Origin: Deltaproteobacteria bacterium
Lineage (GTDB): Bacteria; Bdellovibrionota; JACOXK01; 2-02-FULL-40-11
Reading direction: 5' to 3'
Assembly: GCA_016198185.1 (NCBI GenBank)
Contig: JACQJD010000005.1
Span: 1-32,181 of the forward strand
Length of the DNA: 32,181 bases
Shown: in pieces, positions 4,201 through 19,821 of the stretch
Numbering within the stretch: position 1 is the stretch's first letter
How the letters are laid out: every line of letters begins with the position of its first letter
Made by a program: the position numbers and the translations under genes
The notes under the pieces: generated by a model
What the model saw: the letters and a program-made list of their open reading frames with translations, nothing else
The model's database searches: none
What the model was told of the DNA's origin: nothing

Positions 4201-5282
4201 ATAGAGATAGATTCTGCAGAGCATCTCACGTAGGTCTCTGGATCATAGCCTTCGACTTGGAACGCATTATCTGAGAACCGGTAGGTGCTTCGAGCCGATC
4301 GTATATTTTCTATGAACAACCGTTGTTGCTCATGGTGACCATCGATAAAAGCCTGAACGTGGGGTGCTTGGGCAAGTACTTCGGGAAGAGCTAAGTCTTG
4401 GCGAATGTTAAAAACTCTCTCTTTTCCATCCCTTGAAAAACGAACACGTTTTTTATAAGGATTGCCTCGATCTTTGGGAAAGCGGTTTGAATAAAATTCA
4501 ACTTGTGTGACTTCGCCTGTGCCTCGTCGTTCAAAATAATGAATCTCAACGCGGTGTTGGCCAATGTATCCATATTCAAAAACCTTGAACCAATCGGCTG
4601 CAGTGTCTCCCGGAATCAGAACATACGCCATCGGGACACTGGGGTTTGGAATAAACGGCCGCTCCTGGCGGGGATGTTGGAGGTCTTGCGTATACCCCGG
4701 TGGCAAATAGCCACTTTCTTGTAAAGAGCGGTAAATGCGTCGGTCATGCCAGGAGACAGCTGATTGTCGGGTGGCTTTTCTGATGTCTTGTAACAGCAAA
4801 ACCAAGGGATGAAATGAAGACCAGCCGACCGTTCCATTGGGTGAATAAATAACATCTCTGATTTCACCTGTGCGAAAATTAAATATAAAATGAAGGGATC
4901 CATTAAAGTCATTATTTTCATTCATGCCATGAAGGATCACATGCCACCATTGCTGATGACCTTCACGGTTCGAACTCCAGGGGCCCGGATGATTTGTTTT
5001 GATCCTGTGCACATTGGAATGAGGGCCAAAATCCCCAAAGTTTTCATAAACCGGTTTAAAGTCTCGAGGGACAATGCCAGCGTTTTTTAAGGGGGCTAAC
5101 AGTTTTTCAAATTGTTCTGGGGCAATATAAATGTCAGACGGGTTAAGCTCCTCCTGGCCGTAGGCAGGAGTACCCAAGAGCAAGACGCAGATGAGCATTC
5201 TTGCACCCTGATGGTAAAGAAAGTGACAATTTTTGTCACACGATGACAAAAATGCCCACAAGGTAAGACTCCATTTTTTCAT
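1203..5282 (-). CDS. Large exported/membrane protein of unknown function (1359 aa; start could be M29 at 5198)
   Basis: Long uninterrupted ORF; N-terminal hydrophobic segment MLICVLLLGTPAYGQ; Pro/Ala/Glu-rich linker; C-terminal hydrophobic segments (GLLGGLILMDLL, TPWGVLATVVEQATILLFAE); gaps of only 43 and 47 nt to the flanking trk genes. Confidence 0.88.
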   Translation of the reverse strand: MKKWSLTLWAFLSSCDKNCHFLYHQGARMLICVLLLGTPAYGQEELNPSDIYIAPEQFEKLLAPLKNAGIVPRDFKPVYENFGDFGPHSNVHRIKTNHPGPWSSNREGHQQWWHVILHGMNENNDFNGSLHFIFNFRTGEIRDVIYSPNGTVGWSSFHPLVLLLQDIRKATRQSAVSWHDRRIYRSLQESGYLPPGYTQDLQHPRQERPFIPNPSVPMAYVLIPGDTAADWFKVFEYGYIGQHRVEIHYFERRGTGEVTQVEFYSNRFPKDRGNPYKKRVRFSRDGKERVFNIRQDLALPEVLAQAPHVQAFIDGHHEQQRLFIENIRSARSTYRFSDNAFQVEGYDPETYVRCSAESISIPEPSNEPWMLQLEERLRSIREVVQFVFGHIHSETFYSETPIQIRQEMTDLHAELLKLGLVDGSQNLIAAYEQAIQDERELKELFDAETQPHEKQELVDAISAEQRKQTELLTRIEESLKTGVQTRTNGPTTLRIIISGALTDITLLRKMYVAYGKRHNETELSPWNITELSTDRRTGTVELEISGSGVERFFPLEAGHHRLYRTDGGKQFQRVVKVEIRQGSKYWPAKEGFIRTCFEKENRVWDERLPNVDFTYEAFMRGDIGSLHERLVTEEALNRKLAVLKERAHTLRTRLETEASSQTKKKVPPAVEPPKTPKQVSKPESPKSAMVPLQQAAAEAAADTRSTTAPLETPAAKVRPEEPPEPVTARQTRLENPAAPIRPMESPPESIAAPLSLEEEPIVSAPTQEAPTASAPAKKSSELVTFELLEQILDEPDLERAKTLTLQFKKRLENLKLNHQKKKFLEVAQQAFTAPRFSRRMTLRVSQAAWGGAHFGMVWGLKELLEMALDVYRGDEAGLNAWIAGLPVAVIDGMLFSLAGSLATMPFQREAFLFTQKLLFKRIFLESEGRLTQDWKPKIEKWVGKIQEERIGRIRAEWARIHIGLLGGLILMDLLKTGTLDIVKIMNTFLVFTGINSLASVFIEIKPTIGVIGEGKRFEVIFRMGPKIWRMKVATPWGVLATVVEQATILLFAETIEQSWKQYSQVSSREEGLQEKTAKLYRAIFEQRAPVEDIAQYYEKELAPAFDLARQEALYLSDIAIEYQALLQNDPMKVAFTNRQHLLDAIEQENKQLQETQTHGQSQQTGIAPLPSYTQSTLQQKLWALDQGLVHIGTQIEIYEEKLQKFGSRFQEWMEKKLNAPFVKLYLEDPELFQTMKTFAHVESFGLNRTRLDSPSLRPTMEEIVQGTSKYEKIKTVRGTTIPDFYLREISLLEGISESLTQTQCDLNIHAYLQEKISGLYHELDNSIAYHRDPLEFDQDRSLLHLLVTTVQGAPEITSH

Positions 5283-5329
5283 AAAAGTACTCTGCAGATA
5301 ATAAAATGCAAGTCTTATGCCAGATTTCG

Positions 5330-7093
5330 TTAGCCAACGACAATATATTCTTCGGGATATTCTACGTAAGATTCTTCGACGTCACGCTGAGCTAGGGCAA
5401 CGACGAAAGCAATGGGGCCCACCCGCCCAATAAACATGAGTAGTGTAATAACCATTTTGGAAAAAGAACTTAACGAAGCGGTAATTCCCATGGAAAGGCC
5501 GACAGTATTAAAAGCCGAAATGGTTTCAAACATGGTTGGGAGCAGTGGAAATTGATCATGGATGATAATCAACAAGGCAGCAAAAAATTGGATGAGGACA
5601 GAAAGAAATGTAAGCGCAATGGCTTTATGGATCGTGCTGGTTGGAATGGTTCGTTCAAACATCATGACATGGGGCTTATTGCGAATGACCGCACGCAAGA
5701 GCCCAAAGAGAACCCCAACGGTATTGACCTTAATTCCCCCGGCAGTAGAGCCAGACGCTCCCCCAATAAACATTAAAATCATGAGCATGAGTAAGGTTGC
5801 GTGACTTAAGGTGCCGACATCCAGGGTGTTAAAGCCAGCCGTTCGTGGGGTGACCGCTTGAAAGAAGGCGTTTAAAACTTTAAATTTGAGAGGCAAGTGA
5901 TTGAGTTGTCCAAAATATTCTGTAAATAAAATAAGAAGCGTTCCCCCCACAATGAGAACCCCGGTAATAGAAAGAACGATCTTGGTTTGCACCGAAAGCG
6001 CAATTTTAGGATGTTGTTTGGACAAAACCAAATGCTTTACATCTAAGACCACGAGAAAACCAATGCCTCCTAAAATAATCAGCATGGCCATCGTTAAGAG
6101 AAAATAAGGATCTTTTTGATACAATAAAATATTTTCGGGAAACAAAGACATCCCTGCATTGCAAAAGCCAGAGATGGCATGAAAAACGCCGTGATAAAAA
6201 GCATTATAAAATCCGTAACCTTGTGCTAGAAAACGCCAGATAAAAATAACGGCCCCTGCGCTTTCTACGATAAAAGTAAATTTTATGATTTGTTTCAAAA
6301 GATGCGTCAGCTGATGCGATGCTTTAAACTCAATGGTTTCGGTCATGATTCGTCGTCCTTCAATGCCCAATCCACCACGTAAGAGAAGGGCGATAAAGGC
6401 GCTTAACGTCATAATGCCCAGTCCCCCAATTTGCATCAAAATGACAATGACGATTTGGCCAAACAACGTAAAATCAGTTCCAGGCTGGAGCGTAATAAGG
6501 CCGGTGACACAGGTGGCAGACGTTGCTGTAAACAGTGCATCGATAAAAGGAATTTTTGAAGTTCCCGCCTGAGGTAAAGAAAGGACAACGGTTCCCAAGA
6601 CGATGACCAGGAAAAAGCCCCCTACCAACAGTTGAACTGGTTGAACGTGAAGCCCCAATAAAATGCGATTAAATTCTTTAAACTGCACCAAGACCGATAT
6701 AAAAAGAGCCAGTCTTAAAACAACGAAGTGTTCATGCTCTGGGGCAATTAAATGGGATGGATGAAAGGGAAGATGGAGCTTAATGAGATGAACATAACCT
6801 GCGTAGATGCAGGTTACCAATAACAACCCTGTAAACAGACAATCCCAAAATTCATCACTGACAAATGTGTACTTGGCCGAAGAAAGTCGGTACTTGATCA
6901 TCACTTCTAAGATGGAAAAGAAAATGACGCCGATGTTGATATACCCCAAGATTATTTTTGCATGAGGCGTTAACGGCAAGCCCGATTCAACAATCAGGGT
7001 AAAAAGATAAAAAAGCGCAATGGCAAATAAAAACGCATCTAAACTGTAGAGAAATTGCCAGTGCTTTTCGGGGTATCCAATATGATATTTCAC
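5330..7093 (-). CDS. trkH: TrkH/KtrB family potassium uptake membrane subunit
   Basis: Multi-TM protein with pore motifs TATSATCVTGLITL, SGFCNAGMSLFPEN, PRTAGFNTLDVG, SAFNTVGLSMGIT. Confidence 0.93.
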   Translation of the reverse strand: MKYHIGYPEKHWQFLYSLDAFLFAIALFYLFTLIVESGLPLTPHAKIILGYINIGVIFFSILEVMIKYRLSSAKYTFVSDEFWDCLFTGLLLVTCIYAGYVHLIKLHLPFHPSHLIAPEHEHFVVLRLALFISVLVQFKEFNRILLGLHVQPVQLLVGGFFLVIVLGTVVLSLPQAGTSKIPFIDALFTATSATCVTGLITLQPGTDFTLFGQIVIVILMQIGGLGIMTLSAFIALLLRGGLGIEGRRIMTETIEFKASHQLTHLLKQIIKFTFIVESAGAVIFIWRFLAQGYGFYNAFYHGVFHAISGFCNAGMSLFPENILLYQKDPYFLLTMAMLIILGGIGFLVVLDVKHLVLSKQHPKIALSVQTKIVLSITGVLIVGGTLLILFTEYFGQLNHLPLKFKVLNAFFQAVTPRTAGFNTLDVGTLSHATLLMLMILMFIGGASGSTAGGIKVNTVGVLFGLLRAVIRNKPHVMMFERTIPTSTIHKAIALTFLSVLIQFFAALLIIIHDQFPLLPTMFETISAFNTVGLSMGITASLSSFSKMVITLLMFIGRVGPIAFVVALAQRDVEESYVEYPEEYIVVG

Positions 7094-7131
7094 TAAAAAT
7101 AATTCTACTGGAAGGCGTGCCTAAATGACAA
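7091..7131 (-). promoter_or_regulatory. Candidate sigma70 promoter of trkH (TTGTCA-N18-TAGAAT), -10 eight nt from the GTG start
   Basis: Minus strand TTGTCA (7131-7126), 18-nt spacer, TAGAAT (7107-7102), 8 nt, GTG (7093-7091). Confidence 0.5.
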
Positions 7132-7216
7132 CTCTTTCTAAAAAAATAATCTTCCTTTGCCAGGTTCAACTGACAGTCAATTTTTTTCACTCTTTTTTAG
7201 AAAGAGTCGTCAAAAT

Positions 7217-7432
7217 TTAGACCAGATCTTCGTAGCTTTTTTCGGTTTTTTTCTTTTCGAAGTAGAGTTCGAGAGAATGAAATGCTTCTTTTCGTAGATG
7301 ATGGACGTGAACAAACTGCAAAAATGACTTGATCAAAGGCTCTTTTTTAAAGCTTGAAACGGTGCTGTCGGTCAACTCGACTTTAGGTTGGGATTCTGGA
7401 TGGTGCGATTTTCTGGGTTCCAAAGACGACAT
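7217..7432 (-). CDS. Small hypothetical protein (71 aa)
   Basis: Own promoter-like sequence immediately upstream; divergent from the aminotransferase, whose likely start (7539) lies outside this ORF. Confidence 0.5.
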   Translation of the reverse strand: MSSLEPRKSHHPESQPKVELTDSTVSSFKKEPLIKSFLQFVHVHHLRKEAFHSLELYFEKKKTEKSYEDLV

Positions 7433-7469
7433 TGAAAAAGACTATATAGCAAGAATGATTAAAAATCAA
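7433..7469 (-). promoter_or_regulatory. Candidate promoter TTGATT-N17-TATAGT, eight nt from the ATG of the 71-aa ORF
   Basis: -35 7469-7464, -10 7446-7441, ATG 7432. Confidence 0.5.
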
Positions 7470-7538
7470 GCACTTTTTCATAAACCCCTAAAAATCTTGA
7501 CATATTTTAAGCGATCCCATAGCGTCAGAAAACATTCT

Positions 7539-8675
7539 ATGCATAAGCATATGAGACTTTTTACGCCGGGCCCAACCCCTATCTTTCCTTTAGCCCAAAA
7601 GGCCATGTCGAGCCCAATCTTATACCATCGTTCTAAGGCTTTCGTGGAATTACTGTCTGGTGTTCGAGAGGGCTTAAAAAAGTTGGTTGGGACCCGCAAC
7701 GAGGTTCTGATTTTATCTTCCTCGGGGACTGGGGCGATGGAAGCGGCTATTTTAAATCTTTGTTCTCCGGGGGATGAGGTTTTGGTGATCCGTGCTGGAA
7801 AATTTGGTGGACGTTGGGCTCAAATTGTAAAAGCCCATGCTTTAACCGTACGTATTTTAGATATCCCATTGGGAGAAGTTCCAACGATTGCTCAGGTAAA
7901 AACGTTGATGATGCAATATCCAAATGCCAAAGCCTTATTGATTCAAGCCTGCGAAACGTCTACCGGTGTCAATTTCCCTGTTTCAGAAATTGCAGCGTTG
8001 ACGAAAAAAAGTGATCTCTTGTTGGTGGTGGATGCGGTCAGTTATCTGGGGGTCTCTCCTTTTTATATGGATAACTGGGGGGTCGATGTGATGGTTTCTG
8101 CATCTCAAAAAGGGTTGATGTTGCCCCCGGGGTTGTCTTTCGTTTGTTTCAATGAGAAAGCTTGGGCTGCACAAAAAAAATCAAAGCTCACCAAATATTA
8201 TTTTGATTTGGCCAAAGAGCGTAAAGCGATTGAGAACAATCAAACCGCCTATACCTCGTCGGTTACCCTCATTCAAGGCTTAGCGGTTGTTTTGTCTTAT
8301 GTTCATGAAATCGGAATGCAAACCCTGTTTTCAACCATTCACCAAAAGGCGCAGGCGTTGCGGAACGCTGTCCAGACGTTAGGGTTAGATTTATTTGCAA
8401 AAGTGCCCAGCGATGGTTTGGTGTCCATTGCCGTTCCCCATAAAATCGATGGCACAAAAATTGTAACGAAATTGCGAGATGAATATTCCATGACGATTGC
8501 AGGTGGGCAAGATGAACTCAAAGGTAAAATTATTCGAATTGCCTGTATGGGATACGTTCAATCCGAAGATTTAATTTTATTATTTGAAGCGCTTGAAAAA
8601 GTTTTGGTGGAGCTTGGGTTAAAAATAACCGTGGGGCAATCCGTGTCTGTGTTAAAAAAAGAATGGTCGCTTTAA
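7539..8675 (+). CDS. Class V aminotransferase (serine-pyruvate / phosphoserine / alanine-glyoxylate family)
   Basis: MRLFTPGPTPIFPLAQKAMSSPILYHRSKAF..., LLLVVDAVSYLGVSPFYMDNWGVDVMVSASQKGLMLPPGLSFV (PLP-Lys SQKG); start set at ATG 7539 or 7551, not 7329. Confidence 0.92.
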   Translation: MHKHMRLFTPGPTPIFPLAQKAMSSPILYHRSKAFVELLSGVREGLKKLVGTRNEVLILSSSGTGAMEAAILNLCSPGDEVLVIRAGKFGGRWAQIVKAHALTVRILDIPLGEVPTIAQVKTLMMQYPNAKALLIQACETSTGVNFPVSEIAALTKKSDLLLVVDAVSYLGVSPFYMDNWGVDVMVSASQKGLMLPPGLSFVCFNEKAWAAQKKSKLTKYYFDLAKERKAIENNQTAYTSSVTLIQGLAVVLSYVHEIGMQTLFSTIHQKAQALRNAVQTLGLDLFAKVPSDGLVSIAVPHKIDGTKIVTKLRDEYSMTIAGGQDELKGKIIRIACMGYVQSEDLILLFEALEKVLVELGLKITVGQSVSVLKKEWSL

Positions 8676-8678
8676 ACC

Positions 8679-10261
8679 ATGATTAAAATATTGGTATGCG
8701 GAAAGTTGGCAGATCCAGGGCTAAAACTGCTTTCTCAAGAAAAGCGTTTTGAGCTGGATGTCCAGACCGAGGTTGATGCCGCTTCTTTAAAACCCATCAT
8801 CGGAAAATATGATGCCATGACGGTGCGTTCTGAGACGTTGGTGACCAAAGCGTTATTATCTGCAGCCAAAAAACTCAAAGTCATTGTTCGTGCTGGCATT
8901 GGCGTAGACAATGTGGATGTGGAGGCCGCAACGCAGCAAGGAATTCTTGTGATGAATACACCGCTTGCCAATTCCACAACGACGGCTGAGCATGCCATCG
9001 CGATGTTACTTTCTTTGTGCCGACACATTCCCCAAGCCACGCAATCCCTGAAAGAAGGGCGTTGGGAGAAGAAAAGTTTTTTGGGTGTTGAGGTTTTTGG
9101 AAAGACGTTAGGACTTTTGGGATTGGGCAATGTGGGTAAGATCGTTGCAGATCGTGCTTTGGGATTAAGAATGAAAGTCATTGCGTATGACCCCTTTATT
9201 TCTAAAACAACTGCCCAAAACCTTTCGGTGGAGTTGGTGACGGAAGAAGAACTGTATCAAAGAGCTGATTTTGTTTCGGTTCATATGCCCCTCACCGATC
9301 AAACCCATTATTTTTTAAGCAAAGAAAAATTTTTAAAAATGAAAAAAGGGGCTTTGCTGGTTCATTGTGCACGGGGTGGCATTGTCCATGAAGCAGATCT
9401 TGCCGATATGATTACCCGTAAACACATTTCTGGAGCTGCTTTGGATGTATTTGAAGAAGAGCCCGTACGAGATCTTCGTTTGATTTCTTTGCCTCAAGTG
9501 ATTTGTACCCCTCACTTGGGGGCGGCTACCCATGAAGCTCAGCAAAAAGTGGGGATCGAAACCGCCAAGGTGTTGATGGATTATTTTAAAGAGGGGATCA
9601 TTCAAAATGCTGTCAATATGCCCTCGGTTACGCAAGAGCAACTTGCTGTTTTAAAACCTTATTTGGTTCTGATTGAAAAAATGGGAAATTTTTTAGGTCA
9701 AATGATGGAAAGTGGCAATTTAAAAGCGGTTGAGATTGAATATTCTGGCAAGGTGGTTGATTTGGACATGAAGCTTTTAACACATACCTTTATGATGCAG
9801 TTTCTCCGTCAGCATTTGGAGCATCCTGTCAATACCGTCAATGCACTTCTCATTGCCAAAGAACGGGGAATTTCGATTAAAACCACAATTTCAAATAATA
9901 CATCTGAATTTACGAGTCTTATTTTGGTAAAAGTAACGGGACAAGATCACGAACAAAGTTTGGCGGGAACGATCTTTCATCCCGATCAACCTCGCTTTGT
10001 TCGCATAGATCAATTTTATTTGGAGGCCATCCCAGAGGGGACGTTGCTTTATACCAAAAATAAAGATAAGCCAGGGGTGATTGGGGCGCTGGGAACTTTG
10101 TTGGGGAAAGAAAATATCAACATTTCAAGATTTCAATTGGGGTTGGATGAAAAAACCAAAGAGGCTGTTGCGCTGATCAATATTGATTCTCCCCTTCACA
10201 AAGAAGTTCTTCAGAAAATTTCTAAGATCCCACACATTCTTAGGGTCAAACAGGTGATGTT

Positions 10262-10265
<4 letters not shown>
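8679..10265 (+). CDS. serA: D-3-phosphoglycerate dehydrogenase
   Basis: RAGIGVDNVDVEAATQQGILVMNTPLANSTTTAEHAIAM, LGLLGLGNVGKIVADRA, C-terminal ACT-like GALGTLLGKENINISRFQLG. Confidence 0.97.
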
Positions 10266-12477
<2,212 letters not shown>

Positions 12478-12593
12478 TTGACCAAAAACGGTATCTAAGA
12501 GAAGCTTTTAAATTCAACATAAAAACTTCTTTCGGCGTACTGACGTATGGGTCGGAATCCCATATTTCTATGAGTCAATACGTACGACGAGGT

Positions 12594-12622
12594 TTGACAA
12601 AACGAAAATTTGCTTATATATT
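12594..12622 (+). promoter_or_regulatory. sigma70-type promoter TTGACA-N17-TATATT
   Basis: Perfect -35 (12594-12599), 17-nt spacer, -10 TATATT (12617-12622), 11 nt before GTG 12634. Confidence 0.65.
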
Positions 12623-12633
12623 GCGCAATTCTT

Positions 12634-15000
12634 GTGAATGAATTTTTGAAACCTATTATTTTTTCCTTTATCATCTGCATTTTTTCTCAAAGTGCCATTC
12701 TGAAAGCCCAAGATGAAAGCGAATTTTTATTTTGGTTGAATACGCCGTATTTAGGGGCCGGATATGGACATGTTGAACAAATGCAGCTGAGCCAAAAGGG
12801 AGATGTTCTTTTAATTAAACCGACTCGAGAGGCACCCGTACCTTTCCAACTTGAATACGATTTATATTCTTCAGATGAATACGGTTTATATTCTTCAGAT
12901 GTACGTGAATATTTTCGATCTCCTTATTTGTATGATGGTACCGGTTCAGAAGATCGTGCACAAATGGTTGCTTTAAGTGCTGATGGAAAATCAGTCGCTT
13001 ATGTGGATGCCGCATTTAACTGTGTTTGCCTAGATTTCTTCGAGAATAGAAATTCAAGGACCCGCTATGAAAGCCTATATTGTCATTCCAAAGAGGTTAA
13101 AACACTCTTATTTGATCCTTCCGGTCGGTACATCGTTTCAGGTGGATTGGATCAAGAGCTTTTGATTTGGGATCGCACGCTAGGAGACGTGGTTCAAGAA
13201 ATTTCACATCCGGCATCGATCTATCACGCAGCCTTTACTTCTGATGGAAATTACCTGATCAGCGCATCGTCTAAAGTTCATATTTTAAATATGCAAACAC
13301 ATGAATCCAAGTCTGTTGATTTAAACGCCGATGTTGACACGATCGCACTTCATCCCTCCCAACCGTATGTGGTTGTGGCTACAGCAAAAGGTATTTATGT
13401 TATCGATATTGCAAACGGTTCGATTGAGCGTGATATTCCACTGGGCGACCGATTTCACAATGACGTTAATGTCATTCAAGTAAGTCCAGATGGCGCACAC
13501 GTTTTAATTTTGTCCAAAGATGATCGGTTGGCGTATTTATTTCCATTTGAATTGGATCCTAGATTTGAAATTCAAATGAGACGGGTAACGACCCAAAAGG
13601 TTACAGCCGCGCAATTCCATCCCACAGAACCTTGGCTTCTTTTAGGAGATGAAATAGGGGTTACGCTTTACGCGTCTAAACAAGAAATGAACTTTGCGTA
13701 TCTTAAAATACCTTTCTGTCTGGAGGATCTTAAATGGAGCTCGGATGGAAGCTTTGCCATTCTTTCCAGATTTAGCCCAGACGCGGGGGATCCTAAAAAA
13801 CTTGCGAAATTGGATTTTAATCTTTGGAAACGTTCTTTGATGACACGGTATATAGATCTTTTTAAGACTGCGGGGGAAGGTCATGAAGAGCAAATGGATT
13901 ATTTTGAAAAGTTACTTTTTTTGGGGCCCAAAGACCCTGCGGTTATAGAATTTTTATTTGAAATGATCAATGGTCGTGGAGAAGGCGTTGGGCTCATCAT
14001 TGAGCAAGCGACGTTCGATCATTTGCATCAAATTGGCTATTATTTTTTGTCCGATGAACATGGAATAGATTTGGTGGCCGATCCAGCTCGTGTTCGATTG
14101 CAACATGGCGGAGATGAATGGGGCGACGATCCGATTTATATTACGGTGGATGGGATTAAGGTCAATACGATTCAGGTGAGTGATAGCCTGGTAGACGTGT
14201 TCTTAGAAAAGTACATTCGTATTTTAGATGACTTTCAGCGTCTCAATCGGATGGTCAATATTTGGTTGCATGGGGGACCTGTCATTCATGACGTTTTAGA
14301 TTTAGAAGCCGTACGTTATATCACCATGGATTCACGGCCGCCTTTTCATTCATTGGAGATGGCCAAAAGGGATGCTTTTCAAGAATGGGTTTTGAATGAA
14401 TTATATCCATCCTCTAAGATTGACCAAATATTGCAAAGGGTAGCATTTATTCCAGATTATTCGAATCTAAGGGCAGCTTCGACCCAGATTGAAATTGAAG
14501 AGGCGCTGGATTTGCTTAAGCGTGTGGGAGAGCTTAAATTATCAAGCTTTGAAAGTCGGTGCCTAGCGATGATGGAAAATCAAAAATATTTAAATTTACC
14601 TGCCCAATTATTATCTCAGCTGATGAGAACGCTGGCTCAGATTGGCGGAAATCAAACAGCACAATTTTTTTCAGGTTTGTTACAGAAAAAAGATGGTTTG
14701 GATATAAGGCTTTGGGTGGCACAAGCCTTAGAAGAGATGGGCTTTCAAGTGAAATATTTAAAAGAGCAAGATCGGTATCAATTGGGTTGTCGTGGGTTAG
14801 ATATTATGTATCATGCGGCAATGACGCCTCAAGGCAAACAAGTGGTCATGGTACAGATTGCGAAAAAGTATTTTAAAGAATTTGAGATGGATAACTTAGA
14901 GCCTATCGAGTTTAGACTGAAACACTTGGTGGATCGCCATGCTGCGTTTATTCCTATTCATCTTGACGCCCAGAAATTCGACGATTTGTTCGAATTTTAA
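12634..15000 (+). CDS. Exported WD40/beta-propeller-like protein with uncharacterised C-terminal region
   Basis: Signal-like MNEFLKPIIFSFIICIFSQSAILKAQ; repeats such as VKTLLFDPSGRYIVSGGLDQELLIWDRTLGDVVQEISHPASIYHAAFTSDGNYLISAS; start moved from TTG 12610 (upstream of the -10) to GTG 12634. Confidence 0.8.
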   Translation: MNEFLKPIIFSFIICIFSQSAILKAQDESEFLFWLNTPYLGAGYGHVEQMQLSQKGDVLLIKPTREAPVPFQLEYDLYSSDEYGLYSSDVREYFRSPYLYDGTGSEDRAQMVALSADGKSVAYVDAAFNCVCLDFFENRNSRTRYESLYCHSKEVKTLLFDPSGRYIVSGGLDQELLIWDRTLGDVVQEISHPASIYHAAFTSDGNYLISASSKVHILNMQTHESKSVDLNADVDTIALHPSQPYVVVATAKGIYVIDIANGSIERDIPLGDRFHNDVNVIQVSPDGAHVLILSKDDRLAYLFPFELDPRFEIQMRRVTTQKVTAAQFHPTEPWLLLGDEIGVTLYASKQEMNFAYLKIPFCLEDLKWSSDGSFAILSRFSPDAGDPKKLAKLDFNLWKRSLMTRYIDLFKTAGEGHEEQMDYFEKLLFLGPKDPAVIEFLFEMINGRGEGVGLIIEQATFDHLHQIGYYFLSDEHGIDLVADPARVRLQHGGDEWGDDPIYITVDGIKVNTIQVSDSLVDVFLEKYIRILDDFQRLNRMVNIWLHGGPVIHDVLDLEAVRYITMDSRPPFHSLEMAKRDAFQEWVLNELYPSSKIDQILQRVAFIPDYSNLRAASTQIEIEEALDLLKRVGELKLSSFESRCLAMMENQKYLNLPAQLLSQLMRTLAQIGGNQTAQFFSGLLQKKDGLDIRLWVAQALEEMGFQVKYLKEQDRYQLGCRGLDIMYHAAMTPQGKQVVMVQIAKKYFKEFEMDNLEPIEFRLKHLVDRHAAFIPIHLDAQKFDDLFEF
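12853..12900 (+). repeat. 24-bp in-frame tandem duplication (EYDLYSSD EYGLYSSD)
   Basis: gaatacgatttatattcttcagat / gaatacggtttatattcttcagat, one mismatch. Confidence 0.95.
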
Positions 15001-15028: not shown

Positions 15029-15057
15029 TTGACACCCGTCGGTGGGTTGCATATATA
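15029..15057 (+). promoter_or_regulatory. sigma70-type promoter TTGACA-N17-TATATA for the tRNA/mnmD transcription unit
   Basis: TTGACA 15029-15034, 17-nt spacer, TATATA 15052-15057, upstream of tRNA-Lys with no intervening gene. Confidence 0.65.
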
Positions 15058-15084
15058 AATTAGGTTTTGGCTGCACTTTTTTTC

Positions 15085-15200
15085 GTATGGGTCGTTAGCC
15101 GAGCGAAGCGAGTCCCGAGGGCAAAAGCCACTTGTGGCGAAGTCCGAGGGATCTCATTGTAATGGTATGGGTTCCTTCGCTACGCTCAGGATGACGGTCA
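15085..15200. repeat. REP-like interspersed element in the tRNA leader
   Basis: GAGCGAAGCGAG..CGAGGGATCTC..CCTTCGCTACGCTCAGGATGAC; CGAGGGATCTC (15145-15155) recurs inverted at 31599-31609 and 31668-31678. Confidence 0.6.
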
Positions 15201-15206
15201 AGGTAT

Positions 15207-15279
15207 GGGCCGTTAGCTCAGTTGGTAGAGCATCTCCCTTTTAAGGAGAGGGTCGAAGGTTCAAATCCTTCACGGCTCA
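15207..15279 (+). tRNA. tRNA-Lys (anticodon TTT)
   Basis: Cloverleaf: acceptor GGGCCGT/ACGGCTC, anticodon stem TCTCC-CTTTTAA-GGAGA, TPsiC arm GAAGG-TTCAAAT-CCTTC. Confidence 0.95.
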
Positions 15280-15285
15280 AGGTGG

Positions 15286-15360
15286 GTCCCCTTCGTCTAG
15301 CCCGGTCCAGGACACCTCCCTTTCACGGAGGTAACACGGGTTCAAATCCCGTAGGGGACG
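15286..15360 (+). tRNA. tRNA-Glu (anticodon TTC), CCA follows at 15361-15363
   Basis: Acceptor GTCCCCT/AGGGGAC, anticodon stem CCTCC-CTTTCAC-GGAGG, TPsiC arm ACGGG-TTCAAAT-CCCGT. Confidence 0.95.
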
Positions 15361-15412
15361 CCATTTGAATTGCAAAACGATCCTCCTTAGTGTTATTTCA
15401 GCTTTCCAAACC

Positions 15413-16273
15413 ATGAAGTGTGTTCCAACTCAAGATGGTACGTTGACCTGGTATTGCGATGATTATCGAGAGCATTACCATTCTTTAGGGGGGGCTTATC
15501 TGGAAGCTTATCGCATTTATGTGAAAGGGTGCGATTTGTTAGAAAAAGCGAGAACCTGTGATGAGATTTCCATCTTAGATATTGGGTTTGGTTTGGGCTA
15601 CAACGTTTTTGTGGCCATTGAGAATATCCTGGCCGTTCGGTCGTGGTGCAAAATTAACGTGGTTAGTTTTGAAATGGATCGATCGGTTTTGGAATTTAAC
15701 CAGTATCCAGCCTCACTGCATTTTTGGGCAAATCGAATTAAAAAACATTGGTTGATTCAAGACGATGGGGTGTCCTTTCAAGACGGTCAGGTGGATTTAA
15801 AAATTTATTTACAAGATGCGCGTTCTAAAATTGAATCTTTGCAGAAACGCTTTGATGCTGTTTTTCACGACCCTTTTTCACATCCAAAAAACCCAGAACT
15901 TTGGACGGTGGAATTTTTTTCATCTTTGGCGAAACTGACCAAGCCCGATGGAAAACTGGCAACGTATAGCATGGCAACCCCTGTTTTGAATGCCATGGAT
16001 GAGGCAGGGTGGTTTCCTGTGCTTGCTCGAGGAACAGGGACCAAAAAGTACTCTGTGGTGGCAACGCTTGAAAAAGAGGGGGGATTGTCACCCCACATGC
16101 TGGAAAAACTCGTTCGTTCAACAGAAAAAATACCGTATCGGGATTTGGGCTTGAAGCAATCTCGCCAATCTATTCTAAAGATTCGTCAAGAGGCATGTTC
16201 GAAATTGAAATCAAATCATTCTTGCACTCCCTCTGAAACCCGGTATGAAGAAGGACGATATGAGTTTATTTAA
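15413..16273 (+). CDS. mnmD: MnmD/MnmC2-like (DUF752) tRNA 5-aminomethyl-2-thiouridine methyltransferase
   Basis: DGTLTWYCDDYREHYHSLGGAYLEAYRIY, ILDIGFGLGYNVFVAIENI, DAVFHDPFSHPKNPELWTVEFFSSLAKLTKPDGKLATYSMA, GTGTKKYSVVAT; ATG 15413 preferred over TTG 15365. Confidence 0.85.
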   Translation: MKCVPTQDGTLTWYCDDYREHYHSLGGAYLEAYRIYVKGCDLLEKARTCDEISILDIGFGLGYNVFVAIENILAVRSWCKINVVSFEMDRSVLEFNQYPASLHFWANRIKKHWLIQDDGVSFQDGQVDLKIYLQDARSKIESLQKRFDAVFHDPFSHPKNPELWTVEFFSSLAKLTKPDGKLATYSMATPVLNAMDEAGWFPVLARGTGTKKYSVVATLEKEGGLSPHMLEKLVRSTEKIPYRDLGLKQSRQSILKIRQEACSKLKSNHSCTPSETRYEEGRYEFI

Positions 16274-17867
16274 ATTTAACGCTGCTGCGAAGAAAGAGTT
16301 GCTCGAGCGTGTTATTTCGCATGTTCAGCTCGCGTATCAAAACACCCCAGAAAATATAAGAGAAGAAGTTTTAGAGGAAATGATCTATTGGGAAAAAAAG
16401 CGCCTTGAAAAAATGCGGCATTCTTGGTGGCGCTCCCCCCGGCTGGATTTTTGGGAGCAGTATCAACAGCAGTATGTGGTAGCGCCTCGGGAAGTTCGCC
16501 ACCGCTTACTGGAGCAATCGATTGATCATTATGCCCATCAAATTGTTGGAAATTTTAGTCCTTGGGTGCATACGCTGGCAACGAAAGTGGTCCCTCCTTT
16601 TTTAAACTTTTTGCTCAATCCTTTTTCATTTCAAAAGCTCATTTCCTTAAGAAGCACACTGATCAATGAAAATTTGATCATTTCTGGAAACATTGCCAAC
16701 ATCAAAGCCTTGTTGCAACGAGGCACGTTGGTTTTTGTGCCAACCCATGTCAGCAATTTGGATTCTATCTTGTTGGGGACAGCGCTGCACGATTGTGATT
16801 TTCCGCCGGCGATGTATGGCGCAGGCTTAAATTTATTTCGAAATAAAATTATTGGATTTTTTATGAATCATTTGGGGGCCTATAAAGTCGATCGTCAACG
16901 CGTTCATACCTTATACAAAGATGTTTTAAAGGAATATGCGACTTCTTCCTTAGAAATGGGGTTTCATAATTTATTTTTTCCAGGTGGCACGCGAAGTCGT
17001 TCGGGTGCTATTGAAAAGCGGTTGAAGCTTGGGTTATTGGGAACCACGCTTGCCGCTTATGTCCGAAATTTAATACATGGGAAAAGGAATCCGAACCTGT
17101 ATGTGATTCCCGTGAATATCAATTGTCATCTGACCCTTGAAGCCGAAACGCTCATTCACGATTTTTTGGCTGTCACGGGGAAATCTCGTTACATTATTGA
17201 AAATGATGAATTTTCAAAGCCACAACGCGTTTATACGTATCTAAAAAACCATATGAATTTAAATTCGAAAAGTTTTATTCATTTTGGAGACCCCTTGGAT
17301 CCCTTTGGAAATCGTGTGGATGAGACCGGATGCTCTTTGGATCGCCACGGTCGCAAGATTGATATTTCAAAGTATGTGATGGCTCAGGGGGAAGTGAAAC
17401 TGGATTTCGATCGCGATCAAAATTATACGAAAGAATTGGCCACAACCTTGATTGATGTTTACCATCGCCATAATCGCGTATTGAGTACGAATTTGGTGGC
17501 CTTTGCCCTTTACGAAATGATCGCTCTGCGTCATCCAGACTTCGATATTTATCGGTTGATGAGAAGTCGTGTGTATCATGAACCTATTGAACTCATGGCA
17601 TTCTACAAAATGCTAGACCGTGTTGTTTCACACGTGCGAGCGCTTTCAGAACAAGGTAAGATTGTTTACAGTCAATATTTAAAGTCCTTAGATACGCAAG
17701 ATCTGGTGAGCGAAGCGCTCAAGTTTTTCGGGTCTTACCACGCTCGAAGAACGGTGTACCGGGAAGGGGATCGCATTTTTGTGGGGGATCTTTTGTTGTT
17801 GTATTACTATCATAATCGATTGGTGGGATATAATCTGGAAGACGAACTCAAGGACGTCTCGTTATGA
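16260..17867 (+). CDS. PlsB/PlsC-superfamily glycerolphosphate acyltransferase
   Basis: VPTHVSNLDSILLG (HX4D), GAYKVDRQR, LFFPGGTRSRSGAIEKRLKLGLLG; AAGGA upstream of ATG 16260. Confidence 0.88.
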   Translation: MSLFKFNAAAKKELLERVISHVQLAYQNTPENIREEVLEEMIYWEKKRLEKMRHSWWRSPRLDFWEQYQQQYVVAPREVRHRLLEQSIDHYAHQIVGNFSPWVHTLATKVVPPFLNFLLNPFSFQKLISLRSTLINENLIISGNIANIKALLQRGTLVFVPTHVSNLDSILLGTALHDCDFPPAMYGAGLNLFRNKIIGFFMNHLGAYKVDRQRVHTLYKDVLKEYATSSLEMGFHNLFFPGGTRSRSGAIEKRLKLGLLGTTLAAYVRNLIHGKRNPNLYVIPVNINCHLTLEAETLIHDFLAVTGKSRYIIENDEFSKPQRVYTYLKNHMNLNSKSFIHFGDPLDPFGNRVDETGCSLDRHGRKIDISKYVMAQGEVKLDFDRDQNYTKELATTLIDVYHRHNRVLSTNLVAFALYEMIALRHPDFDIYRLMRSRVYHEPIELMAFYKMLDRVVSHVRALSEQGKIVYSQYLKSLDTQDLVSEALKFFGSYHARRTVYREGDRIFVGDLLLLYYYHNRLVGYNLEDELKDVSL

Positions 17868-18934
17868 AATTACCCGTAGGTGTGATTGGGGGAGGTTCTT
17901 GGGGGACCACTCTGGCAGCGTTGATAGCTGCGACGGAACACCCTGTGAAACTTTGGTGTCGAGATTCCAAAGTTGTGCAAGAGATCAATGCCCAGCACAC
18001 CAATCAGGCTTATACCGGGGCGTATTTGCTTTCAGGCTATATTCAGGCAACCACAGAAATAAAAGAAGTCATTACCACCTGTGATCTTATTTTTATGGTT
18101 ATTCCTTCGAGAAGTTTCAGGTCCATTGCATTTGAAGTTGGAAAGTGGATTCAAGGAAATCAATTGTTGGTTTCGGCCACCAAAGGACTGGAACTGCCGC
18201 GTGTTAAGACCATGAGCGAAGTTTTAAAAGAAGAAACCTGTTGTAAAAAAATAGGGGTTTTATCTGGGCCCAATATTGCAACCGATATTCTTCAGGGGGA
18301 TCCTTCGGGAACCGTGATTGCCTCTCCTTATCAAGAAGTGATTGAACGTGTGCGAGATGTTTTAAATCAACCTCGTTTTAAAGTTTATGGAAATAAAGAT
18401 ATCCGCGGAACCGAAATGGCCGGTGCTTTAAAGAACATCATTGCCATTTCTTGTGGAATTGCAGAAGGGATGGGTCTTAAAAACAATGCCAAATCTTTCT
18501 TGATCACCCGAGGCATGATGGAAATGTCACGGTATGGTTGTTTTTTTGGCGGAGAGCTCCAGACGTTTTATGGTCTTTCCGGGATGGGGGACTTAATTGC
18601 AACGTGTTTTAGTCCACACAGTCGGAATCAAACGCTGGGGAGACATATTGCCCAAGGTCAAAAAGTTGAAGATGCTGTGAAAAAAATTCAGGGCGTGGTG
18701 GAAGGGATGTACAGTACTCAAGCTGTTTTTCACATGGCTAAAAAATTTCATATTTTTATGCCCATTACAGAATCCATTTATCGCATATTATTCGAAGGGG
18801 CGACCGTTGAAAACGAGATCAAATATTTGATGGAAGTTCGAATCAAATTTGAAGAAGGAAGTTTACGTACTTCTTATGCAGATTTGACACACACGCTTAT
18901 TCCCAAATATCCTATTCCAGAATATCTTTTATGA
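17864..18934 (+). CDS. gpsA: NAD(P)H-dependent glycerol-3-phosphate dehydrogenase
   Basis: VGVIGGGSWGTTLAALIA, VLSGPNIATDI, EMAGALKNIIAISCGIAEGMGLKNNAKSFLITRGMMEM; ATGA overlap with the upstream gene. Confidence 0.95.
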   Translation: MKLPVGVIGGGSWGTTLAALIAATEHPVKLWCRDSKVVQEINAQHTNQAYTGAYLLSGYIQATTEIKEVITTCDLIFMVIPSRSFRSIAFEVGKWIQGNQLLVSATKGLELPRVKTMSEVLKEETCCKKIGVLSGPNIATDILQGDPSGTVIASPYQEVIERVRDVLNQPRFKVYGNKDIRGTEMAGALKNIIAISCGIAEGMGLKNNAKSFLITRGMMEMSRYGCFFGGELQTFYGLSGMGDLIATCFSPHSRNQTLGRHIAQGQKVEDAVKKIQGVVEGMYSTQAVFHMAKKFHIFMPITESIYRILFEGATVENEIKYLMEVRIKFEEGSLRTSYADLTHTLIPKYPIPEYLL

Positions 18935-19821
18935 GAATTTTTTCATATCGGACCTTGTCCAAAGAATTTCAGGGTGTTCTGTATATTTGGGATGTGGATA
19001 AGACCTATTTAAATACGAACTTTGAATCTTTAAAAGGCTTATTCAAAATTATGTTTGAAGAAGCGGTGGATAAAGTGACCATCGCAGGTGCCAGAGAGCT
19101 CATCATTGAACTTCGAAAAGGAGCGGAAACTCAAATCGGAATTCATCCTGTTTATTTTATCAGCGCAAGTCCCGTTCAACTGAGAAGGGTGTTGGAACAA
19201 AAATTTTTACTGGATGGAATTCAACACGATGGCCTGATTCTCAAAGACTATCGTTGGTTTTGGAAGAAATATAAACATTTTCCTTTGAAAAATAATTTTG
19301 TTTATAAGTTGATTTGTTTGTTGTCGCATCGTTTGACGATGCCTCCCACAAGCCAAGAGATTTTGTTTGGAGATGACTTTGAACAAGACGACAAGGTCTA
19401 TGTTTTGTATGCCAATATTTTGAATGGCACAACCACAGAAAAAGCTCTTAAATCCATTTTAAAGCAAGAAGAGGCCAAGCCCCGTGAAATTTCAGATATT
19501 TTACAATGGGTCAAAGTGCTTCAAGAAAAGAAAAGCGCTCAGCCAGTGGTTCAAAAAATTTTTATTCATTTAATTGGAAAAAAGAAGAAGGCCGATCTCT
19601 TAAACCATGGTCAAATTATCGCTACCCGAAATTATCTTCAAACCGCTGCGATTTTGTATGAACTTAAAAAAATTTCAAAACTTGGTTTTCGAAAAGTGGC
19701 CAATGCTTTTGACATTAAATACGCACCCTCCGAATGGTCGTTCCGCAAAAGCTTGGAAGACTTGAAGGAACGAAAGCTGATTACAGAAGTTACGTACGAT
19801 GAACTTTCCAACTGGAAATAG
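18931..19821 (+). CDS. App1-like (DUF2183/LNS2-like) HAD phosphatase, putative phosphatidate phosphatase
   Basis: YIWDVDKTYLNTNFESLKG (DxDxT), HPVYFISASPVQLRRVLEQKFLLDGI, ILFGDDFEQDDKVY; ATGA overlap with gpsA. Confidence 0.7.
   Translation: MRIFSYRTLSKEFQGVLYIWDVDKTYLNTNFESLKGLFKIMFEEAVDKVTIAGARELIIELRKGAETQIGIHPVYFISASPVQLRRVLEQKFLLDGIQHDGLILKDYRWFWKKYKHFPLKNNFVYKLICLLSHRLTMPPTSQEILFGDDFEQDDKVYVLYANILNGTTTEKALKSILKQEEAKPREISDILQWVKVLQEKKSAQPVVQKIFIHLIGKKKKADLLNHGQIIATRNYLQTAAILYELKKISKLGFRKVANAFDIKYAPSEWSFRKSLEDLKERKLITEVTYDELSNWK

Follow-up and report, generated by a model that had tools for sequence, protein, structure and literature searches.

The methyltransferase activity of MnmC, MnmC(m), has been reported on tRNA-Lys(UUU) and tRNA-Glu(UUC) species (PMC3936742, PMC9976899). 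In Escherichia coli this activity is independent of the oxidase (PMC3936742) and in Aquifex a DUF752 protein has been shown to function as a stand-alone enzyme (PMC3936742). Operons holding both tRNA genes and a protein gene are represented by thrU-tyrU-glyT-thrT-tufB of Salmonella, which has one promoter (PMC6134099). In the part of the literature that was covered, no described case was found of tRNA genes co-transcribed with the modification enzyme gene mnmD or mnmC.

The window analyzed here, a stretch of 32,181 nt, carries genes for tRNA-Lys(UUU) and tRNA-Glu(UUC) directly followed by a gene for an MnmD-like U34 methyltransferase. A sequence-only reading had proposed that the enzyme and two of its substrates are made from one transcript, with stoichiometric coupling of tRNA supply to wobble modification, and of both to downstream phospholipid genes. 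Comparison with relatives favors another view, which we hold to be quite probable: mnmD occupies a permissive, variable slot beside its presumed substrate tRNAs, with co-transcription of an ordinary kind, and the pairing is coincidental. The comparison used a class sample of eight genomes from two families, the first with G000 (the source genome) to G005 and the second with G006 and G007; the source genus is represented by one genome, G000.

All genes and elements described from purA onwards lie on the plus strand of the window. The gene purA (11173-12477; PF00709, 4e-189) neighbors the tRNA pair on the upstream side in each of the two families, and the order purA, tRNA-Lys, tRNA-Glu is kept in G001, G002, G003, G006, and G007. 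It is directly preceded by a sequence encoding a 309-aa HisZ/HisRS-like protein (10262-11191), which shows a weak match to an anticodon-binding domain (PF03129, 2.9e-4) and a partial match to the ATP phosphoribosyltransferase regulatory subunit. In the source genome only, a WD40-repeat protein gene (12610-15000; PF00400, 7.8e-14) stands between purA and the tRNA promoter; it is absent from that place in G001, G002, and G003. Right behind the purA stop codon is TTGAC (12478-12482), at the place matching that of the -35 box in the relatives, and it looks like a leftover of the original -35 box after insertion of the WD40 gene. The sequence CGTATGGGTCG is found twice, near 12540 and at 15084.

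The strong promoter proposed at 15029-15057 was borne out, with TTGACA at 15029-15034, a spacing of 17 nt and TATATA at 15052-15057. It is the single match to TTGACA-N16-18-TATAWA when both strands of the window are scanned; a separate promoter scan, which requires T at the sixth position of the -10 box, skipped it for that reason alone. The -35 box, the 17-nt spacing and the TATA-type -10 box occur at the same position before tRNA-Lys in G000, G001, G002, and G003. Both tRNA genes are likewise present as proposed, tRNA-Lys(UUU) at 15206-15280 and tRNA-Glu(UUC) at 15286-15363, with Rfam RF00005 matching 15207-15279 (74.5 bits) and 15286-15360 (59.9 bits) and ARAGORN in agreement. Searched against Rfam, the leader gave no riboswitch and no known RNA besides the tRNAs. 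The genome has 32 tRNA genes above cut-off, and anticodons UUU and UUC were found solely at the mnmD locus (anticodons assigned by ARAGORN for the best 30 of the 32, the remaining two being Leu(CAA) and Leu(GAG)). This sole-copy status is provisional, because the assembly is 92% complete and several expected tRNAs, e.g., those for Gln and Thr, are missing from it.

Promoter and tRNA-Lys are separated in the source genome by 15085-15202, which consists of an extra tRNA-Lys 5' end (GTATGGGTCGTTAGC, 15085-15099, identical to 15203-15217 at 14 of 15 positions) followed by a composite, REP-like palindromic element of 103 nt (15100-15202). Three further copies exist in the genome, all before tRNA-Ala genes, one at tRNA-Ala(GGC) and two in tandem at tRNA-Ala(CGC); the copies, of about 70-105 nt, are located at 15085-15217 of the window, at 1494-1624 of locus L099 and at 1304-1516 of locus L013. 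In every copy the 5' end of the tRNA concerned (~15-19 nt) is present twice, which restores an intact tRNA, and in all three tRNA genes the element is joined after the same position, TAGC at nucleotide 11. With relaxed search criteria, no additional copy turned up in this genome, and none in the seven relatives. The 3' part of the element has the form GATCCTTCG...CTCAGGATGACG, a common REP-like motif that is mostly distant from tRNA genes in the relatives. In the predicted fold of 15064-15282 the duplicated 5' end pairs with the 3' acceptor strand of the real tRNA-Lys (z -2.3), and by this model it could act as a decoy that disturbs tRNA-Lys maturation or processing.

The methyltransferase gene (15413-16273) follows tRNA-Glu on the same strand after a spacer of 49 nt (15364-15412). 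As had been proposed, no terminator was seen between them: a hairpin scan of the spacer was empty, and the spacer folds no better than its shuffled versions (z +1.0), which gives no sign of a terminator or a structured leader. No consensus promoter was detected in 15363-15413, nor is mnmD preceded by a clear Shine-Dalgarno sequence. Short junctions of this form, lacking a terminator, are common in the source genome and involve unrelated genes; 13 of 30 tRNA genes are followed on their own strand by an ORF of 100 aa or longer that starts within 100 nt (ORFs called mechanically, with mnmD entered twice, via tRNA-Lys and via tRNA-Glu), e.g., tRNA-Arg(UCG), tRNA-Trp, and tRNA-Val(CAC). Judged by sequence, the locus has the tufB layout, with one promoter ahead of the tRNAs and no terminator before the protein gene. 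With the shared strand and the conserved promoter, this makes the proposed co-transcription likely, and tRNA-Lys, tRNA-Glu, and mnmD probably share one transcript of an ordinary, tufB-like kind. Downstream, the mnmD stop overlaps by 14 nt the start of a gene for a plsB-like acyltransferase (16260-17867; PF01553, 2.6e-13; relatives' orthologs 50-65% identical), which is followed, each with an overlap of 4 nt and in conserved order, by gpsA for glycerol-3-phosphate dehydrogenase (17864-18934; PF07479, 4e-52) and a gene for an APP1-like phosphatidate phosphatase (18931-19821; PF09949, 1.2e-10). These overlaps uphold the suggested link of mnmD to the downstream phospholipid genes; a purposeful coupling of enzyme and substrates was not supported.

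Assignment of the methyltransferase agrees with the earlier proposal. The 286-aa product matches the DUF752 profile PF05430 with an E-value of 3.6e-25 (88.7 bits vs. a cut-off of 22) over positions 5-122 of 124. The best family by score is NCBIfam NF033855 (MnmC2 equivalog domain; positions 4-207 of 209), at 126 bits, below the cut-off of 136 as a divergent member would score, and for this reason the name MnmD is probable and not certain. The nearest solved structure is Aquifex MnmC2 (PDB 3VYW; E 9.3e-31, residues 4-250 aligned). A SAM-binding GxGxG-type motif and a D-x-F-S...N-P-x-L-W-T motif are both present, and G58/G60/G62, D153, F155, S156, N160, L163, W164, and T165 are invariant across about ten homologs. 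The protein is thus probably a divergent, single-domain MnmC2/MnmD. Genes for MnmG (920 bits) and MnmE (399 bits) are above cut-off and adjacent on contig C51, and a search of the genome for an MnmC1 oxidase gave only weak oxidoreductase matches, all below cut-off. Since MnmEG is present and no MnmC1 scores above cut-off, the enzyme probably methylates nm5U supplied by MnmEG with ammonium, and presumably it acts on the adjacent tRNA-Lys and tRNA-Glu.

What follows the tRNA pair differs between relatives. Genes for plsB-like, gpsA, and APP1-like proteins adjoin the pair or stand near it in G001, G002, and G003, and the slot between tRNA-Glu and plsB holds mnmD in the source genome, nothing in G001 (plsB starts ~20 nt after tRNA-Glu), three opposite-strand genes in G002, and about nine genes of sugar-nucleotide or glycan type in G003 (4833-13182 of locus L093, on contig C37), the last of which shares 4 nt with the start of plsB. 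The promoter, the tRNA pair and the plsB operon are constant in the family; the variable slot has several different occupants, of which mnmD is one.

Elsewhere mnmD keeps other company. It was found in two of the eight class genomes, G000 and G006, and not in other members of the source family, including G002 (completeness estimate 100%). In a phylogenetic tree the MnmD of the window is sister to that of G006 (support 100/98), and the two are separate from a group of Bdellovibrio- and Bacteriovorax-like genomes. In G006 the gene is flanked by ligA and ftsZ and has no tRNA beside it. No tRNA at all was seen within 1.5 kb of 29 further mnmD loci, and no tRNA with a UUN anticodon in flanks of up to 5 kb at 80 loci (7 tRNAs in 648 kb of flank); the two sets share at least three loci and give about 106 distinct other loci. 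A survey of mnmD neighborhoods, which the sequence-only reading had suggested, thus shows the adjacency once in about 107 loci, at the window itself, neither kept across species nor arisen repeatedly.

These comparisons bear on the idea of an evolved enzyme-substrate operon, in which mnmD would be retained behind its two substrate tRNAs to keep the capacity for wobble modification in step with tRNA supply. The enzyme family is the correct one, with MnmC(m) reported on these tRNA species; both tRNA genes, as the only ones found with their anticodons, would fit a functional link, and strand, gap and missing terminator allow one. However, the adjacency is a single occurrence, each family member read has different slot content, the sister lineage has mnmD at another place, the cluster is without a third substrate such as Gln(UUG), and tRNA-to-ORF junctions with unrelated genes are common in this genome; we regard such an operon as improbable. 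Still less probable is a version confined to the lineage of G000, where capture of mnmD would have created a self-adjusting unit, tRNA output and wobble methylation co-varying while the mRNA is freed by tRNA processing.

Functional co-transcription may be doubted for the junction itself. If mnmD had its own promoter or transcription start within tRNA-Glu or the spacer, and most tRNA transcripts ended or were cut earlier, the neighborhood would carry no shared message, and the unclear Shine-Dalgarno sequence before 15413 does suggest that translation from a long transcript may be weak. Yet the spacer shows neither a terminator-like hairpin nor a consensus promoter, and in G001 plsB begins so close behind tRNA-Glu that there is no space for a promoter outside the tRNA gene, which leaves this explanation unlikely, if the least so of the alternatives. 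The changing gene content downstream of tRNA-Glu would also suit integration of mobile elements at the tRNA 3' end with mnmD as cargo. Against this, a search past the cargo in G000, G002, and G003 for att-like copies of the 3' end of tRNA-Glu gave none of at least 11 nt, the slot of G000 has no integrase, and mnmD is sister to a copy from the same class; its G+C and GC3 resemble those of its neighbors, so a recent foreign origin by composition was rejected as well. We consider integration of this kind scarcely likely.

The reading of a coincidental pairing looks the better one because the slot of the relatives is empty or filled with unrelated genes. Under it, the conserved promoter would drive tRNA-Lys(UUU) and tRNA-Glu(UUC), and transcription would continue into whichever gene comes next; in the family this is the plsB-like/gpsA/APP1-like operon, preceded by a variable slot. 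In G000 that slot is occupied by mnmD, a gene placed elsewhere in the nearest relative of the class. Processing at the tRNA 5' and 3' ends would free both tRNAs and a separate mnmD-plsB-gpsA-APP1 mRNA, and a strict stoichiometry, as the sequence-only reading had it, would be broken by this separate processing. The position of mnmD would then be an outcome of gene shuffling, with no selection for the pairing and no evolved coupling of substrate and enzyme. The coupling proposed from this one genome is not supported as a purposeful one, given a slot gene that varies or is absent in the family, an adjacency that is unique among the loci examined, and junctions of the same form that are common in the genome.

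If the coupling were true, it would be a new way of matching tRNA supply to wobble modification. As it stands, the case counsels caution, as a striking enzyme-substrate neighborhood in a single genome dissolves on reading the same locus in relatives, and its lasting value is as a clear example in which a conserved tRNA promoter feeds a downstream slot whose gene varies. Compared with known systems, the enzyme resembles MnmC2 of Aquifex aeolicus (DUF752, 3VYW), likewise a single-domain methyltransferase with no fused FAD oxidase, but UUN tRNAs lie beside none of the Aquificota loci checked. It shares with E. coli MnmC(m) the methyltransferase family, the KNPxLWT motif and the SAM-binding glycine motif, whereas the E. 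coli methyltransferase forms one fused protein with the oxidase MnmC(o) and here no oxidase was found above cut-off. In the tufB operon, too, a single promoter stands ahead of tRNA genes and a gene for a protein, a layout known from transcription units of bacteria; it differs in that its protein is EF-Tu. Here the protein gene is mnmD, in a slot where the gene varies among relatives.
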